Assembly: GCF_031127815.1 (NCBI RefSeq)
Contig: NZ_JARXHY010000003.1
Location: forward strand, 466,218 to 530,217
Direction of reading: 5' to 3'
DNA: 64,000 bases
Source: Pelagicoccus sp. SDUM812003
GTDB lineage: Bacteria > Verrucomicrobiota > Verrucomicrobiia > Opitutales > Opitutaceae
The first letter of the stretch is position 1; every line of letters begins with the position of its first letter. A program made the position numbers and the translations under genes. Under the pieces are notes generated by a model. The model was given only the letters and a program-made list of their open reading frames with translations, searched no databases and was not told the origin of the DNA. Positions 50,761 to 63,347 of the stretch are shown here, piece after piece.

Positions 50761-51426
50761 TCAGGACGCCCCGTCGACGAGCCTTAGGATGCGGTAGGCT
50801 GCCATGGCGGCTCCGTAGCCGTTGTCTATGTTGACCACCGTGATGCCGTTGGCGCAGCTGGCGAGCATGGTGTTGAGGGCGACGTGGCCGCCGGCGGCGA
50901 CTCCGTATCCGACCGAAGCTGGAACTGCGATGATGGGCTGCGGCAGAAGTCCGCCGACAGCGGTGGGTAGCGCTCCCTCGAAACCGGCGACGACGATCAG
51001 CGCCCTGAAGCGTTTCAGCGATTCGACCCTATCGAGCAAGCGATGAATGCCAGCGATGCCGATGTCGTTGATGCGTTCGCTGGCGACGTTGAGGAAGGAC
51101 AGGGTGTAGTAGGCCTCGTTGACGATAGGCACGTCCGATGTACCCGCGGAGAGGATACCGATCTGCGGTTCGCCGCTTGGCTTGGCTTGCGAGGCATCCA
51201 GCAGGAAGGCTCCGGAGGCCTCGTCGTAGAGACTGTCGGGAAAATGCCGTTTCAGCACCTTCGCCTTTTCCGGTTGCATCTTCGTGACCAAAGCTGGCAG
51301 CTGGCGTTGCCGATAAGCGTCCAGGATGCCAGCGAGAGCGTCCACCGGTTTGCTTGCTCCGTAGATCACCTCGGGAAAACCGAGTCGCCTCGTGCGGTCG
51401 AAGTCGAGATTGAAAGAGTCGCTCAT
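50761..51426 (-). CDS. larB: Pyridinium-3,5-biscarboxylic acid mononucleotide synthase LarB
   Basis: LarB carboxylates nicotinic acid adenine dinucleotide and hydrolyses it, the first step of nickel-pincer cofactor synthesis. The 221-aa protein has an N-terminal helical part with DFDRTRRLGFPEVIYG and the AIR carboxylase-like (PurE) domain. That domain has ILSAGTSDVPIVNEAYYT and the substrate-site text GFEGALPTAVGGLLPQPIIAVPASVGYG. Its start overlaps the larE stop by 4 bp. Confidence 0.93.
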   Translation of the reverse strand: MSDSFNLDFDRTRRLGFPEVIYGASKPVDALAGILDAYRQRQLPALVTKMQPEKAKVLKRHFPDSLYDEASGAFLLDASQAKPSGEPQIGILSAGTSDVPIVNEAYYTLSFLNVASERINDIGIAGIHRLLDRVESLKRFRALIVVAGFEGALPTAVGGLLPQPIIAVPASVGYGVAAGGHVALNTMLASCANGITVVNIDNGYGAAMAAYRILRLVDGAS

Positions 51427-52235
51427 GCGTTTGAGGAAAGGGCTCTGTTCAGTTTTCCGGATACGAATCCTTCTCGGTCCACGCTGATGGTTTCGAAGCC
51501 CAAAGCGCGCAGGGCGGCGGAAATCCTGTCCAGGCGCGAGGTCAGCGCCTCTATTTGCTCGAACGGCACTTCGATCTTCGCTTCCGTTCCAAAGTGGCGC
51601 ACGCGCCCATCGGTGAAGCCGTAGCGTTCCAGTACGCTTTCAGCGGTTTCGATCTGCTGTAGTTTGCCTCTGGTGACGGGAGAACCGTAGGGGATTCGGG
51701 AGCTGAGGCAGGGGCTCGCCGGCTTGTCCCAGTTGGGCAATTCGAGGTGACGAGCGAGTTGGCGAACGGTCTGCTTGTCGACGCCGCATTCCGAGAGGGG
51801 AGAGCGGATGGCGTGGTCGGCGGCGGCTTTGAGACCGGGACGATAGTCTCCCAGGTCGTCCGCGTTGGTGCCGTTCAGTATCGTGCGCGTGGGGAAGCGT
51901 CGCTGCAGTTCGCCGAGGTCCTGATAGAGGTGGGACTTGCAAGCGAAGCAGCGATTGGAGGGGTTGCTTGCGTAGTTGCGGTCGTCCAGCTCGCGGGTGT
52001 GGATGATCTCCAGCTGGATGTCGAAGCGTCGGCAGAACGTTTTCGCTTCCTCCAGGTCGCGACGTTTCAGGCTGGGAGAGTCCGAGATGCAGCCGATCGC
52101 TCGTTCGGGCCCGAGGAAGTCGCGTGACAGCTTCAGGACGAGCGTCGAATCGACCCCGCCGGAGAAGGCGGTTATGGATCCTTCGAGCTGGGAGAACCAG
52201 CGTTCGAGGCGAGTGAGCGTGTCTTGCGTGGTCAT
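51423..52235 (-). CDS. larE: ATP-dependent sacrificial sulfur transferase LarE
   Basis: LarE turns the carboxylates of the LarB product into thiocarboxylates using sulfur from its own cysteine or a cluster. The 270-aa protein has the PP-loop SGGVDS (25-30) and the later motif NRCFACKSHLY, plus CLSSRIPYG. It is first in the lar operon larE-larB-larC-small protein. LarA, the racemase that uses the cofactor, is not in the window. Confidence 0.92.
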   Translation of the reverse strand: MTTQDTLTRLERWFSQLEGSITAFSGGVDSTLVLKLSRDFLGPERAIGCISDSPSLKRRDLEEAKTFCRRFDIQLEIIHTRELDDRNYASNPSNRCFACKSHLYQDLGELQRRFPTRTILNGTNADDLGDYRPGLKAAADHAIRSPLSECGVDKQTVRQLARHLELPNWDKPASPCLSSRIPYGSPVTRGKLQQIETAESVLERYGFTDGRVRHFGTEAKIEVPFEQIEALTSRLDRISAALRALGFETISVDREGFVSGKLNRALSSNA

Positions 52236-52394: not shown

Positions 52395-52512
52395 ATCCGC
52401 TTTGCGAAATTCGAAATTCTGCGTTTCTACTGAATGGTGGCTCTGGCGATGGACGTTGGGAAAGCGCCAAGCCTCGTCTGGGAAAGGCAAGCTCGGGAGG
52501 AGCGAACGAGGG

Positions 52513-54126
52513 ATGTTGAAGACGAAAAGGACTGAAACAAGGGGGAAATGGGTGGTGAGCGAACGGTCGCCGGAATGTCGCGTCTTGCTGCTGACGGAGT
52601 CGAAGGGAAAGGGCTCCGAGCTGTTCGAGGCCTTGGCGACTCGCAAGGCTGGCTCGAAGTTCAGCCTGCGTCGCTGCGGGGACGTGAGCTCCGCCTTCGA
52701 GGCGCTGGAGAGCGGCGGCTACGACATATTGCTGCTCGATCTGGGCCAAGCCGATTCTCTTAACGTCTCCGCTCTGGTCGAGATGCGTGACCGCTGCCAT
52801 TGCCCGATCGTGGTGCTGAGCGACTCCAACGACGAGCAGGTCGCGGCCTTGGCCATGCAGAACGGAGCCCAGGACTTTCTGGGAAAGGACATTCTCAACA
52901 GCGATCTGCTGGAGCGAACGATGCATCATTCCATCGAGCGGCACCGCATGTTGGCCGAGTTGGAGGCGGCCAAGCGAAAGGCCGAAGCGGCCAGCAAAGC
53001 GAAGAGCGATTTTCTCGCGGTGATGAGCCACGAGTTTCGCACCCCCATGAACGGCATTCTGGGAGGCATCAATCTGCTGCGCAACTTCAACTCCGATCCG
53101 CAAGCGATCGAGTTGCTCAACATGATGCGCCAGTGCGCGGAGAGCCAGTTGGATCTGATCAGCGACGTGCTCGATATCAGTCGGATCGAGGCGGGCAGCG
53201 TGCAGTTGACTTTCGAGCGGTTCAGCCCGCGCGATCTGATCGCCTCGGTCCTCTCCGCGGTGGCCTTCGACGCGAGGGAGAAGGGGGTTCGGCTGGCGGT
53301 CGATATCGATCCCAAGCTGCCGCGCGAGCTCGTTTCCGACGCCAGGCGGGTGCGTCAGGTGATGATGAATCTGGTGGGAAACGCCATGAAGTTCACCGAG
53401 CAGGGGGAGGTGAGAATCTGCGCCCGCAAGCTCAACGACCGCCTGATCGAATTTCGGGTGATAGACACCGGGATCGGCATCGCTTCGCAGGCCCTAGACT
53501 CCATTTTCGAGACCTTCACTCAGGTCGACTCCTCCTACAGTCGCCGCTATCAGGGCACAGGGCTGGGTTTGGCCATCTGCAAGCGCCTGGTGAAGCTGCT
53601 CGGAGGCGCGATTCGGGTGGAAAGCAAGGTCGGCGTCGGCTCGGACTTCCGTTTCACCATCGCTTGCGGCGAGCGGGAGGAGCTGCTCGGAAGCGAGGCC
53701 TGGCCACAGGACCCTACGGATCCCGGTTTCGCAGAGCGCTTCCCCCTGTCCATCCTGGTGGTGGAGGACAACGAGCTGGTGCGCACCTTTCTCATGGCGA
53801 CTTTTGAAAAGCTCGGGTACGTGGCGCGACAGGCCGAGAGCGGAGCCCAAGCCCTGTCCCTGTCGGACGAGCAAGCCTTTGACGCGATCTTCATGGACGT
53901 GCGCATGCCGGACTTGGACGGATTCGAGACCGCTGAAATGATTCGGGACAAGCAGCTGGATTCGGGAAAGCCTCGGCCCTACGTCGCCGCTATCACCGCT
54001 TCGGTCACCGGCGATGTCGAGCGCCGTTGCGAGGAGGCCGGATTTTCCGCCCTTCTGGCCAAACCGATCGAAATAGAGGATCTTCGAGCCTTGCTCAGAG
54101 CCGCCTACCAGCAGACGCAGGGTTAA
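52513..54126 (+). CDS. Hybrid histidine kinase with receivers at both ends
   Basis: This is a cytoplasmic hybrid kinase of 537 aa from the ATG at 52513; the frame opens further 5' at a GTG. Its domains run in this order. First, an N-terminal receiver-like domain (about 22-140, phosphoacceptor Asp76, Lys125), which lacks the usual acidic pair at its start. Second, a short coiled linker and HisKA with phospho-His173 (SHEFRTPMNG). Third, an ATPase domain with N-box NLVGNAMKFTEQ, DTGIGI and GTGLGL. Last, a C-terminal receiver with VVEDNELV and FMDVRMPDLDGFE. No membrane helix or known input domain is present, so the input is probably phosphorylation or binding at the N-terminal receiver. Confidence 0.88.
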   Translation: MLKTKRTETRGKWVVSERSPECRVLLLTESKGKGSELFEALATRKAGSKFSLRRCGDVSSAFEALESGGYDILLLDLGQADSLNVSALVEMRDRCHCPIVVLSDSNDEQVAALAMQNGAQDFLGKDILNSDLLERTMHHSIERHRMLAELEAAKRKAEAASKAKSDFLAVMSHEFRTPMNGILGGINLLRNFNSDPQAIELLNMMRQCAESQLDLISDVLDISRIEAGSVQLTFERFSPRDLIASVLSAVAFDAREKGVRLAVDIDPKLPRELVSDARRVRQVMMNLVGNAMKFTEQGEVRICARKLNDRLIEFRVIDTGIGIASQALDSIFETFTQVDSSYSRRYQGTGLGLAICKRLVKLLGGAIRVESKVGVGSDFRFTIACGEREELLGSEAWPQDPTDPGFAERFPLSILVVEDNELVRTFLMATFEKLGYVARQAESGAQALSLSDEQAFDAIFMDVRMPDLDGFETAEMIRDKQLDSGKPRPYVAAITASVTGDVERRCEEAGFSALLAKPIEIEDLRALLRAAYQQTQG

Positions 54127-56124: not shown

Positions 56125-56265
56125 GTTGCTCTAGGCCGCCGATGCGGGTAGCGTTTTTTTTCCCAACGCCGTTCTCGCTTGTTTTCTCGAGGAGTTGCCT
56201 GAAGCGGCGGACGTCGCGAAGGAAGCGTTCGCTTTTTGCCCAGCGTTTCGTTTCAGTCTTGGAAA

Positions 56266-56703
56266 ATGAGCGCACCGAATCCTAAACAGTCGCAGTCGTG
56301 CGAATACGCGGATAAATCCTGCCCCTGCGGAACTGAAACGCCGTACGCGTCGTGCTGCGGTCCTTATCACCAGGGTAGCGCCTCGCCGGAAACCGCGGAG
56401 CAGCTCATGCGCTCGCGCTACAGCGCCTTCGCCTTGCGAAAGGTGGACTACCTGTTCGAGACGACCTTCCCCTCATCGCGCGGGGCTCACCTGCGTCAGG
56501 AGCTTGCTGAAGGTATCGATGATCCCGTTTGGACTTCGCTGAGCGTGCTGTCCACTAGCCAGGGGCGAAAGGGCGACAAGCAAGGCAAAGTGGAATTCGT
56601 CGCCCACTACCTGCTCGATGGCAAGCCCTGCGCCATGCACGAACGTTCGCGCTTCAAGCGCTATCAAGGCGCATGGAAATATGTCGATGGTGAGGACCTC
56701 TGA
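56266..56703 (+). CDS. YchJ-family SEC-C motif protein
   Basis: The 145-aa protein has an N-terminal zinc-binding SEC-C motif (CPCGTETPYASCCGPYHQG), then AEQLMRSRYSAFALRKVDYLFETT, the YchJ signature, and a C-terminal NTF2-like domain. It is small and soluble, with unknown function. The ATG at 56266 follows a GGAAA box. It converges with the large PKD protein gene (50-bp gap). Confidence 0.88.
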   Translation: MSAPNPKQSQSCEYADKSCPCGTETPYASCCGPYHQGSASPETAEQLMRSRYSAFALRKVDYLFETTFPSSRGAHLRQELAEGIDDPVWTSLSVLSTSQGRKGDKQGKVEFVAHYLLDGKPCAMHERSRFKRYQGAWKYVDGEDL

Positions 56704-59323: not shown

Positions 59324-61444
59324 TCAGAGGGTGATAGGAAGTTCGCTGGCTTGCTTTCGTACATGCAGGAGGGCGAGAAACTGCTGAGCATGGCTGGGAT
59401 CGGTGAGCGGGATCGTTCCGGTTCGGATTCGATCGGGATGCGCTTGCGATTTGACGGTCGGATGTTCGGTTTCGAGGGATCTGGCGTAGTCGATCAAACC
59501 CTTCGCTCCGCTCTTTTTGAGCTGGGTCCGTGTGACGATTTGAAAAAGCCCGGCGGAGTTGGGTGCGATGTGCCGACCGGCTTCCAGAGCGATGCGTCCC
59601 ATGGTGACTCGCGGATTCACTTCCACTACGCTTTTAAGCCTCAACCGCCCGTCGTGTTCCCGATAGACGAAGGCGTCTATTCCGATAGGACCTTGGAAAT
59701 TCGCGGAAATCAGTTCATCGGAAAGGAGGGGATTGAGCGACGCCTCATACCATTGGTAGACCCTTGGTTTGCCACGCTCTCGCTGCATGAGGAAGCGAAC
59801 GATCTCCTTGTCGAGCCCATGGGTAAAGGCGTTCAGGACGATGCCTTGGAACTGTCCACGCGCATTGTTTATCAGTCGAGTGAAGCCCACCGTGTCGAGT
59901 CTGCTTCCTCGCATTTCGAGTTGTAACGAGAAATCGAATACGCGATCGAGCCACGGCTCGACCACGAGGGATCCTTGTTCGGCGAGCGTGTTCTCCAGCC
60001 AATTACCTGTCGACTGAGGGATAGGTTCGCCACAGGCGAGCCGTCGCATAGCATTGGCTGCGGTTCCGAACGGGGCTTTGCAGACCAGATCGCGATAGCC
60101 TTGGCATTGCAACTGTTCCCATCGGTCCTCGACTTCCTCAAGCGAGAATACCGTATGCCCGTAGACTTCGCAAGGGGCTAGCCAATCAAGCGCGGTTTCC
60201 CTCGAGGCGAGAGAGCGTCCCCACTCGCTGCTCCACGATTTCGAGTACAGTCTGCGAAGGGCCTCCGTCCAACACGAGTCAACTTCTACGGGGCGGGAGA
60301 GCGCGGGGAACGTTGGCGTCAAAAAGGAGATGCTATCCGGAGCCCAGGCCCATGGGCGGAGAACTCCGAGCTTGCGATCAAGCGCGGGAGCACGGAGCGG
60401 AGACTTGCTTGTATCGACTATTTGGATCTCTGGCAGTGTGAAACCCAAGTCTTGGAGCCTTTGCAGAAACGCGACGCTAGGCTGGGCGCTTGTGATCAGA
60501 AGATCGTCTTGGCGGGCCAAATAAGCCGGTAGAAATTCGAGGTCTCTCTGCACACTCGATAGCTCCACCTCTGACGGAGTTCCTTGGTCCGCTGCGGCGT
60601 AGCGTTCCGCGTCAGGGTTAAACCAATACACGTCCGGAGTGCGGCCACGCGATTGGTTAAAGACTTGCATCTCGCGAATGAAACACGGATCGAATCCGAC
60701 TTCGCGGCGCCCGTCCGCGTTGAAAGGGTTGCCCTTGGCTCGTGACGGAGACAGGGGAAAAACGAGACGTTCGCGGTAGGCCTCCCAATCGCTCTTGCCT
60801 GCCGCTTTCCATTTGCGAAACCATTTGAGGCCGAAGCCCACGTGATCGATCTCGTCGCGGTAGATGCGGTCGAGAATGTTGGCGGTGGCCTTGTCGCCCA
60901 CTTGGTCGAAGATCCGTCCGTACTCGCGCGAGTAGTCCAGATTCGCTTGCTCGAAGGTCAGCGAAAGGCGCGTCACGTAGTCGAGTGGATCCTCCATGCT
61001 GGAGACGCTCTTCCAGAAGTAGTCGCTAAGCGGCAGCTCCCCGAACTCCACGCCGCATTGCTTCATGCGGTGCATGTAGATGCGGGTGTGGATCTGCTCG
61101 TCCTTCAGCGTTTCCAAGAGTCCGCGGCGGAAGCTGGCAGGGGCGTCGGGAAACTTCAGGATAGCCAGAGCCATGAGCTCAGTGGCCAGCAGCTCATGGT
61201 TTCCAAAGAAGTGCAGCAGACGGCCTCGTTCGCGCTCGTCGACGAGTTTCGCCTGGCTGGGATGGTTCGCTTTCACCCCGTCTTCCCGCAACGCGAGGTG
61301 GGAAGGCCGGGTGAGCTCGCCCGGCGTCTTGATGGCAGCCCCCGGCTTGGTGTCGATGATCTCCTCCCGCGGAAAGCTGAGCTTTTCCTCGATGGTGGTG
61401 CCGAAGAGCACCTGTTTCGCGAACTCCTGTAGTTGAACTGGCAT
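59324..61444 (-). CDS. DUF455 ferritin-like domain fused to an ATP-grasp-like domain
   Basis: This is a 706-aa cytoplasmic protein from the ATG at 61444 (the frame opens 30 codons earlier, but that leader looks unrelated). Residues ~1-285 are a DUF455 ferritin-like domain with candidate diiron ligands Glu84 (or Glu89), Glu116, His119, Glu165, Glu198 and His201 (HELLATEL, DEQIH, YRDEIDH). Residues ~420-640 look like an ATP-grasp domain: Lys456 in CKAPFGTAA, the hinge-like VVEPWLD (496-498), and the metal/phosphate motif VVEVNPR (Glu608, Asn610, Arg612). DUF455 is usually a stand-alone ~270-aa protein. The pairing suggests ATP-dependent amide/peptide bond formation coupled to oxidation; the substrate is unknown. 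Confidence 0.75.
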   Translation of the reverse strand: MPVQLQEFAKQVLFGTTIEEKLSFPREEIIDTKPGAAIKTPGELTRPSHLALREDGVKANHPSQAKLVDERERGRLLHFFGNHELLATELMALAILKFPDAPASFRRGLLETLKDEQIHTRIYMHRMKQCGVEFGELPLSDYFWKSVSSMEDPLDYVTRLSLTFEQANLDYSREYGRIFDQVGDKATANILDRIYRDEIDHVGFGLKWFRKWKAAGKSDWEAYRERLVFPLSPSRAKGNPFNADGRREVGFDPCFIREMQVFNQSRGRTPDVYWFNPDAERYAAADQGTPSEVELSSVQRDLEFLPAYLARQDDLLITSAQPSVAFLQRLQDLGFTLPEIQIVDTSKSPLRAPALDRKLGVLRPWAWAPDSISFLTPTFPALSRPVEVDSCWTEALRRLYSKSWSSEWGRSLASRETALDWLAPCEVYGHTVFSLEEVEDRWEQLQCQGYRDLVCKAPFGTAANAMRRLACGEPIPQSTGNWLENTLAEQGSLVVEPWLDRVFDFSLQLEMRGSRLDTVGFTRLINNARGQFQGIVLNAFTHGLDKEIVRFLMQRERGKPRVYQWYEASLNPLLSDELISANFQGPIGIDAFVYREHDGRLRLKSVVEVNPRVTMGRIALEAGRHIAPNSAGLFQIVTRTQLKKSGAKGLIDYARSLETEHPTVKSQAHPDRIRTGTIPLTDPSHAQQFLALLHVRKQASELPITL

Positions 61445-61683: not shown

Positions 61684-62044
<361 letters not shown>

Positions 62045-62111
62045 CTGTTTATGCGGCTTAGAGCCGTTTTCGCTTAACTTCGCATTTAAAACGTGCAAAG
62101 TAAGCCTCCTC

Positions 62112-63347
62112 ATGGGCAGAAAAAGGAAGTTCCACGTCAAGGAGATCGTGCATCCTAACGGCGAGAAAAGCTACGAAGCCTATGGTCGAGTCGGCAACGC
62201 AAAAGAACCAACTCGCAAGCGCTTCGGGACATGGGGGAAGGCGAACGCCTTCAAGGACGTTCTCGAAGCTCGTCACCGTGATGCGATGGGAAGCCGCAAA
62301 GCGGTCTACACCACGCTCACCGACCCCGAGGTAGCCGACGCGGAGTCCGCTATCAAGGAGCTGCGATCTCACGTTTCCGACAAGTCGCTTTCCTGGGCTG
62401 TCCACAAACTCTTCGAGTCTTACAATCCTAACATCGTGGAGAAGGACCTGATCTCGGCGGTTCGCGAGTTCAAGGCGGCAAAGATGGGCTTGAGCAAAAG
62501 GCAATATCGAGACTACGCCAACTTGCTGGATGGCCTGTTGGATTCCTTTGAGGAAAAAAGGCGGACGAGCGTGAAAGTCCACCAAGTCACAACGAAGGAC
62601 ATTCAAGCGTTTCTCGCTACTCGAGAGCTCAAGGAGGCCAAGAGCAGAAACAACGTGATATCGAACTTGGGTGCCTTTTTTCGCTGGGCAGCGTATACAG
62701 AAAGGAAATACATTTCAAAGCACGCGATACCGACGGATGATGTTGAGCGTGCAAAAACGAAGAAACCACGCAGGGAAATCATCACGGCTGAACAGGCAGC
62801 CGAATTGATGGAGTACGCGGAAAACTTTCGCGGCGGTGTTTTAGTCAACTTCATCGCCACAGCTCTCTTCGGTGGAATCAGGCCAGATGTCGACGGTGAG
62901 CTTGCTGATGAGGGACTCGACCCGAAAGTTGAAGAATTGTTTTCGGTAGAGCGTGGCACCATTGAGGTGACCGAACAGAATTCGAAAACAGGTTCATTTC
63001 GAGATGTTGTCATCCAACCGGCTCTCCGCTCGTTTTTTGAAACGTACCCGATGAGCAAATACCCGATCGTGCCACGAGTTCCGCCGGCGTCGAACGCAAA
63101 GGATAGAAGATCATACCTTCGATACCTGCTAAAGAAATTTCGGGAGGGGTGCCCGGTCAAAGTGCCGCACGACGGTCTGCGTCACAGCTATTGCAGTTAT
63201 CACGTCAAAATCTCCGGATCGATTGCCGAGACCGCTTTGCAGGCAGGCGATAGCGAGGCTACCATCCGCAAACACTACATGCGCCGCGTATCAGATACTC
63301 AAGCCGATCTGTTTTGGGCGATCCGTCCCGTCAAGATGCCTGCCTAG
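62112..63347 (+). CDS. Tyrosine-type site-specific integrase
   Basis: The 411-aa recombinase has an N-terminal arm- and core-binding region (1-200) and a catalytic domain. Visible active-site residues are Arg257 (GGIRPD), Lys292 (SKTG), His353 and Arg357 (PHDGLRHSY), and the nucleophile Tyr389 in IRKHYMR; Asp380 stands where the second His is usual (AGDSEATIRKHY). It would insert and excise the element at ssrA. It ends 17 bp inside the convergent gene's 3' end. Confidence 0.9.
   Translation: MGRKRKFHVKEIVHPNGEKSYEAYGRVGNAKEPTRKRFGTWGKANAFKDVLEARHRDAMGSRKAVYTTLTDPEVADAESAIKELRSHVSDKSLSWAVHKLFESYNPNIVEKDLISAVREFKAAKMGLSKRQYRDYANLLDGLLDSFEEKRRTSVKVHQVTTKDIQAFLATRELKEAKSRNNVISNLGAFFRWAAYTERKYISKHAIPTDDVERAKTKKPRREIITAEQAAELMEYAENFRGGVLVNFIATALFGGIRPDVDGELADEGLDPKVEELFSVERGTIEVTEQNSKTGSFRDVVIQPALRSFFETYPMSKYPIVPRVPPASNAKDRRSYLRYLLKKFREGCPVKVPHDGLRHSYCSYHVKISGSIAETALQAGDSEATIRKHYMRRVSDTQADLFWAIRPVKMPA

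Follow-up and report, generated by a model that had tools for sequence, protein, structure and literature searches.

The gene described here occupies 59324..61444 on the minus strand of the window, as the whole analysed stretch of 64,000 nucleotides from Pelagicoccus sp. SDUM812003 is called below, and it encodes a DUF455 ferritin-like domain joined to a predicted ATP-grasp ligase half. The call is based on the open reading frame (ORF) and its translation, on full-length relatives and on the presence of the gene in 8/8 Pelagicoccus genomes, its own included. The single frame starts with an ATG at 61444 and runs through 706 amino acids with no internal stop; the fusion protein is real, neither a chance ORF nor a decaying gene. 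On the same strand, the DUF455 domain (residues 57–256) lies at 60677..61276, a connector recognised by its conservation (residues 230–267, with RAKG at 235–238 and the start of an SxGRTP motif at 265–270) at 60644..60757, and the ligase half (residues 268–705, including a pre-ATP-grasp subdomain) at 59330..60643. A first-pass annotation of the letters had read this as a single 706-residue protein joining DUF455 to an ATP-grasp-like half, which is confirmed by the ORF, the PF04305 score and the fold match of residues 268–705; the residues it named (E84, E89, E116, H119, E165, E198, H201, K456, VVEPW at 494–498 and VVEVNPR at 606–612) are all in place, and its interpretation as a fused putative diiron oxidase and ATP-grasp ligase is supported. 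Residues 230–239 of the connector have a predicted local distance difference test (pLDDT) value below 50 in a model of the N-terminal domain alone; the full-length model reaches a predicted template-modelling (pTM) score of 0.85, which suggests a defined arrangement of the domains.

PF04305 reaches 158.1 bits (cut-off 34.3) over residues 57–256 in Pfam (E 3.9e-46), where DUF455 is a 'protein of unknown function', and it matches 36/36 members of the family. In the fold comparison of the N-terminal domain, the rows listed are mostly ferritin-like, with Dps and bacterioferritin among the neighbours; they contain no heme-oxygenase-like (HO-like) chains, which does not exclude such a fold, and no MiaE chains, which proves nothing. 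The MiaE profile PF06175 is absent from the Pfam table of the fusion. The profile PF11266 of aldehyde-deformylating oxygenase, a protein of similar fold that lacks a ligase half, stays below its cut-off in the fusion family (4/36 members at E ≤ 1, best 0.081). The predicted diiron ligands E84, E116xxH119, E165 and E198xxH201, together with E89 (60842..61195, minus strand), are recognised by their conservation and are present in 89/89 sequences of an alignment made up of the window protein, 78 ORFs from related loci and 10 database relatives. The six ligands also occur in 3/3 stand-alone DUF455 proteins aligned (an E/ExxH/E/ExxH set; six rows, three of them stand-alone), and position 89, an invariant Glu in the fusion family, is Asp in these three proteins, which makes E84 the likelier ligand of the two. 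The DUF455 half has a complete diiron-type ligand set, with metal binding and catalytic use predicted. Of the 144 positions conserved at ≥ 97% in the alignment of 89 sequences, 104 precede residue 281. By mean difference, too, the DUF455 half is the more conserved one (0.33 vs 0.56 for the ligase half).

For residues 268–705, the predicted structure finds its best fold matches in 3wvr/3wvq and 8ynd and also matches 7r8q and 8yi6, all ATP-grasp ligases; an ATP-grasp fold of the second half, as the first-pass annotation had expected, is therefore what the structure match of the model gives, and the half is predicted to be a ligase of the PGM1/BesA/LdmS type. Profile scans are weaker: PreAtp-grasp (PF18604) at residues 308–355 reaches 21.7 bits, under its Pfam cut-off of 27.5 (23/36 members at E ≤ 1, best 0.0003), no ATP-grasp family exceeds its Pfam threshold in the fusion protein, and the NCBIfam scan of that protein gives no match. 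The LdmS profile NF047900 likewise does not match the window protein and matches 11/40 relatives weakly (best E 0.0013), below the equivalog cut-off. Sequence searches against solved structures returned nothing significant with the single sequence, with alignments A1 and A3, or with a Bacteroidales protein; alignments A1, A2 and A3 comprise 36 of the 120 listed proteins, 39 and 40 rows, respectively. The second conserved residue set (K402, K456, E496-P-W498, D504, D590, E608, N610 and R612; 59609..60241, minus strand), also recognised by conservation, includes the Lys/Glu/Asn/Arg residues of the first-pass annotation, which are kept in the homologues: K402, K456, W498 and D504 occur in 89/89 sequences, E496 in 87/89, and D590, E608, N610 and R612 in 88/89, the exception being a gap in a truncated ORF that ends early. 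K402, a second invariant lysine, had been absent from the earlier list. In an enlarged locus set of 87 rows (8 loci added, database relatives excluded; L092 and L095 of the ten loci not included), the same residues are conserved save for a single gap in each column, except W498 (85/87) and E496 (86/87). By analogy with ATP-grasp enzymes, K402 and K456 are presumed to contact the phosphates, E496–W498 the adenine hinge, and D590, E608 and N610 the Mg; ATP binding is predicted on this analogy.

Fusions elsewhere were looked for, as the first-pass annotation had suggested, and a protein database search with 7998 scored candidates returned 2175 proteins at E ≤ 0.001, of which the best 120 all carry PF04305 and have 550–750 residues. 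Relatives that bear a name are labelled DUF455 family, ferritin-like or hypothetical protein, with no mention of ATP-grasp among the names shown. A search with the ligase half found 367 proteins; 118 of the best 120 carry PF04305, the others being a 338-residue partial record and a 452-residue protein. In the phylum, the full fusion profile matches 14/288 genomes, one copy each, in 9/152 genera. DUF455 matches above 140 bits fall in the same 14 genomes, as do matches of the ligase-half profile alone at E ≤ 0.001, each lying within an open frame of 648–739 residues; the 288 genomes yielded no separate ligase half, with at most five candidates per genome scored, and no separate DUF455 match above 53.9 bits. 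The two halves are thus paired throughout this sample. In total, 25/288 genomes exceed the DUF455 cut-off of 34.3, and 11 fusion-free ones have matches of 42.8–53.9 bits on different-looking proteins. Trees of the two halves, from which one of 97 fusion sequences was excluded as too short, each recover a window-like clade, mostly Opitutales (24 sequences, support 0.986; 23 sequences, 0.998), where the group of 24 was chosen by similarity and the record titles place most, not all, of its members in Opitutales or a family thereof. Because the half-trees recover the same clade and the pairwise distances of the halves correlate (r 0.88), the pattern is consistent with a single ancient fusion that was later lost in places; transfer is possible too. 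No viral contig encoding a relative was confirmed among 60 pattern stretches.

Outside the phylum, each half is found alone. A translated search of plasmid-labelled records gave 15 records with matches: 11 from Alphaproteobacteria and two from Neisseria match DUF455 only, and those from Parabacteroides (24.5% identity, residues 272–693, E 3e-19) and Prevotella match only the ligase half. A plain BLASTP comparison with a Bacteroidales single-domain protein gave 24% identity (E 4e-27). Four of five Bacteroidales stretches were read, L172 being left out, with the single-domain relatives at L165 9992-11200, L166 9995-11104, L170 5986-7191 and L171 5995-7110; K456, E496, D504, D590, E608, N610 and R612 are kept in 4/4, position 402 is Arg, and the SxGRTP linker of the fusion family is mostly gapped. 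In the one Bacteroidales member scanned, no Pfam family exceeds its cut-off; the NCBIfam LdmS model matches the Parabacteroides protein with 8.4e-8, which falls far short of the equivalog cut-off. In three of the four regions, these genes adjoin an AAA ATPase gene and nifJ (two by annotation, L166 by eye from ORFs). The stand-alone DUF455 proteins share the six-residue ligand set and the PF04305 match with the fusion; the three scanned have 274–284 residues and score 319–348 bits, compared with 158 bits for the fusion's DUF455 domain, which is joined to a ligase half. In 2/3 alphaproteobacterial regions, a peroxiredoxin gene directly precedes the DUF455 gene (L168 4387-5699; L169 4363-5639), and cysQ precedes it in the third.

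Other DUF455-bearing proteins were set aside. Weak matches on other proteins of the phylum (19.5–53.9 bits) were not counted as fusion relatives, 4/6 having looked tandem ferritin-like by eye in a limited look; these four (L110, L113, L115 and L120) measure 457–552 residues from stop to stop, the other two (L111 and L122) yielded a frame that looked wrong, and G060, G122 and G271 hold three or four such weak matches each. Short DUF455 proteins on long contigs numbered 397 and resembled genuine single domains; since the alignments of 72 of the 120 listed reach into the ligase half beyond residue 285 and several of the 11 cases read continue into unrelated-looking sequence, many are probably fragments or frameshifts, though not all are explained in this way.

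As for function, we consider it an even call that the fusion uses O2 to oxidise a substrate resembling an amino acid and then, by way of an acyl phosphate formed with ATP, links it to an amine partner. Oxidation of this substrate would take place at the DUF455 site, where two bound metal ions would activate O2; at the ATP-grasp site, a carboxylate would be phosphorylated to an acyl phosphate and coupled to an amine, and the product would be an oxidised, amide-linked (dipeptide-like) metabolite. The two sites would handle the same small molecule in turn, with oxidation preceding ligation, an order and a substrate that we infer. No neighbour family is widely conserved at 79 related loci, many of them short-flanked (80 of 479 loci were used and 79 compared, with L033 and L044 excluded for lack of a core ORF); the commonest is an ABC ATPase, at 16 loci and in varying positions, so no gene cluster hints at the product. 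Since the fusion would seem to need no dedicated cluster, its probable substrate is a common amino acid or central metabolite. The broader proposal, that some Verrucomicrobiota carry a two-step natural-product pathway of diiron oxygenase and ligase in one protein that makes a new oxidised dipeptide-like metabolite without a cluster, is more tentative, and we would sooner doubt than assert it.

Other readings also have some evidence in their favour. The peroxiredoxin gene before stand-alone DUF455 in two of the three alphaproteobacterial regions favours a redox module, and Dps and bacterioferritin among the fold neighbours point the same way: the DUF455 half may serve as a ferritin-like module for redox or peroxide handling, or as a metal/O2 sensor gating the ligase, and the ligase may make a protective dipeptide or thiol-type metabolite, with the LdmS link hinting at a sulfur amino-acid ligase. 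This is considered unlikely, as conservation is heaviest in the first half (104/144 positions before residue 281), as for a substrate pocket, and ferritin-type storage would need no fused ligase. A macromolecular target is rather unlikely as well; in this reading, a protein or RNA would receive an amino acid from the ligase half and be hydroxylated by the diiron half, the latter in the manner of MiaE on tRNA. One of the three stand-alone DUF455 proteins scanned, from Sinorhizobium, does match MiaE PF06175 weakly (E 0.0036, 17.6 bits, cut-off 27), and a solitary modification enzyme would also fit a gene without a conserved cluster; however, occurrence in just 14/288 phylum genomes is unlike a general modification, and the nearest ligase folds, PGM1, BesA and SAOUHSC_02373, are ligases of small peptides or amino acids.

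The halves might also act on unrelated substrates and be joined for stability or co-expression alone, as their separate occurrence in other phyla would allow. This seems improbable given 288 phylum genomes without a separate ligase half or a separate DUF455 match above 53.9 bits, although 11 fusion-free genomes nonetheless have DUF455 matches of 42.8–53.9 bits, above the cut-off of 34.3. In addition, the same group emerges from both half-trees, and a pTM of 0.85 suggests that the domains are arranged in a definite way.

Among known systems, PGM1 and the Streptomyces ligase 8ynd are the closest in fold across the second half, to which the weak PreAtp-grasp match can be added; both are stand-alone proteins with 13–14% sequence identity to the fusion. 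We take 3wvq and 3wvr to be PGM1, the pheganomycin peptide ligase, since the entry titles say just 'ATP grasp protein', LdmS (L-aspartate--L-methionine ligase) to be SAOUHSC_02373 of the structure entries, and 8yi6 to be BesA, the ATP-grasp ligase of the beta-ethynylserine biosynthesis pathway. LdmS is not known to have a diiron domain, and the fusion lies far below its equivalog cut-off. The BesA system consists of separate proteins, in contrast to the one protein here, and BesC has a heme-oxygenase-like fold, unlike the ferritin-like DUF455. According to PMC8939145, PGM1 acts in antibiotic biosynthesis, whereas the fusion gene has no conserved cluster. In mangotoxin biosynthesis, as PMC13185094 describes it, MboA and MboC/MboD likewise combine a diiron oxidase with ATP-grasp amino-acid ligases in one small pathway, but with an HO-like oxidase and separate clustered genes, unlike the ferritin-like, joined and unclustered arrangement here; the same text reports 1447 HO-like diiron oxidases near ATP-grasp ligases in at least 25 clusters, again as separate genes. 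Operons of diiron oxygenase and cupin with ATP-grasp ligases, also separate genes, appear in PMC2922099, and PMC4520260 mentions DUF455. What seems new is that one protein combines a ferritin-like domain of diiron type with a predicted peptide-type ligase of the ATP-grasp family; known precedents are separate genes. Fifteen papers were found to use the term DUF455, none of them in its title or abstract, and there was none joining DUF455 to ATP-grasp or describing a ferritin-like/diiron–ATP-grasp fusion, in a literature search that left subscription journals mostly uncovered, so that a prior report is possible. A 2009 survey of ATP-grasp amidoligase architectures reportedly covers ground where the fusion could be mentioned.

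The long-standing fusion to a peptide-type ligase would tie DUF455 to amino-acid or peptide chemistry and so offers a functional clue and a substrate class. Cluster-based mining would overlook such a gene, because it lacks conserved neighbours and is named DUF455, ferritin-like or hypothetical. Its relatives, at least 120 and up to 2175, may make an unseen metabolite, and the ligase half also leads to the single-domain Bacteroidales family.

Around the gene, a transfer-messenger RNA (tmRNA) gene and, after it, a gene for an integrase (Phage_int_SAM_1) lie at 61684-63347 of the window, the start of a likely integrated element cut by the contig end, which coincides with that of the window (base 530217). 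A mobile origin of the fusion was rejected despite this adjacency, because 18 other stretches have no tmRNA or integrase homologue and a gene for a YchJ-like (PF17775) small protein, at 56236-56703 in the window, lies near the fusion in 5/8 genus loci, the window included. A lactonase gene is directly upstream in 5/8 genus loci, and a gene for a conserved 240-residue protein with a weak DUF1826 match (E 0.0089, one homologue; L140 6880-7599; own genome C1:28586-29260) is upstream in some Pelagicoccus and Opitutales loci; their position in several relatives had suggested a pathway. In the window, neither adjoins the fusion, and the DUF1826-like gene lies on another contig; as an operon partner it was rejected, with 27/288 phylum genomes compared with 14 for the fusion and 3 shared where about 1.3 are expected. 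Farther away in the window lie a PP-loop ATPase-type protein (NAD_synthase profile match; 51423-52235), which may be LarE-like, and a hybrid histidine kinase with HisKA, HATPase_c and two response-regulator stretches (52402-54126).
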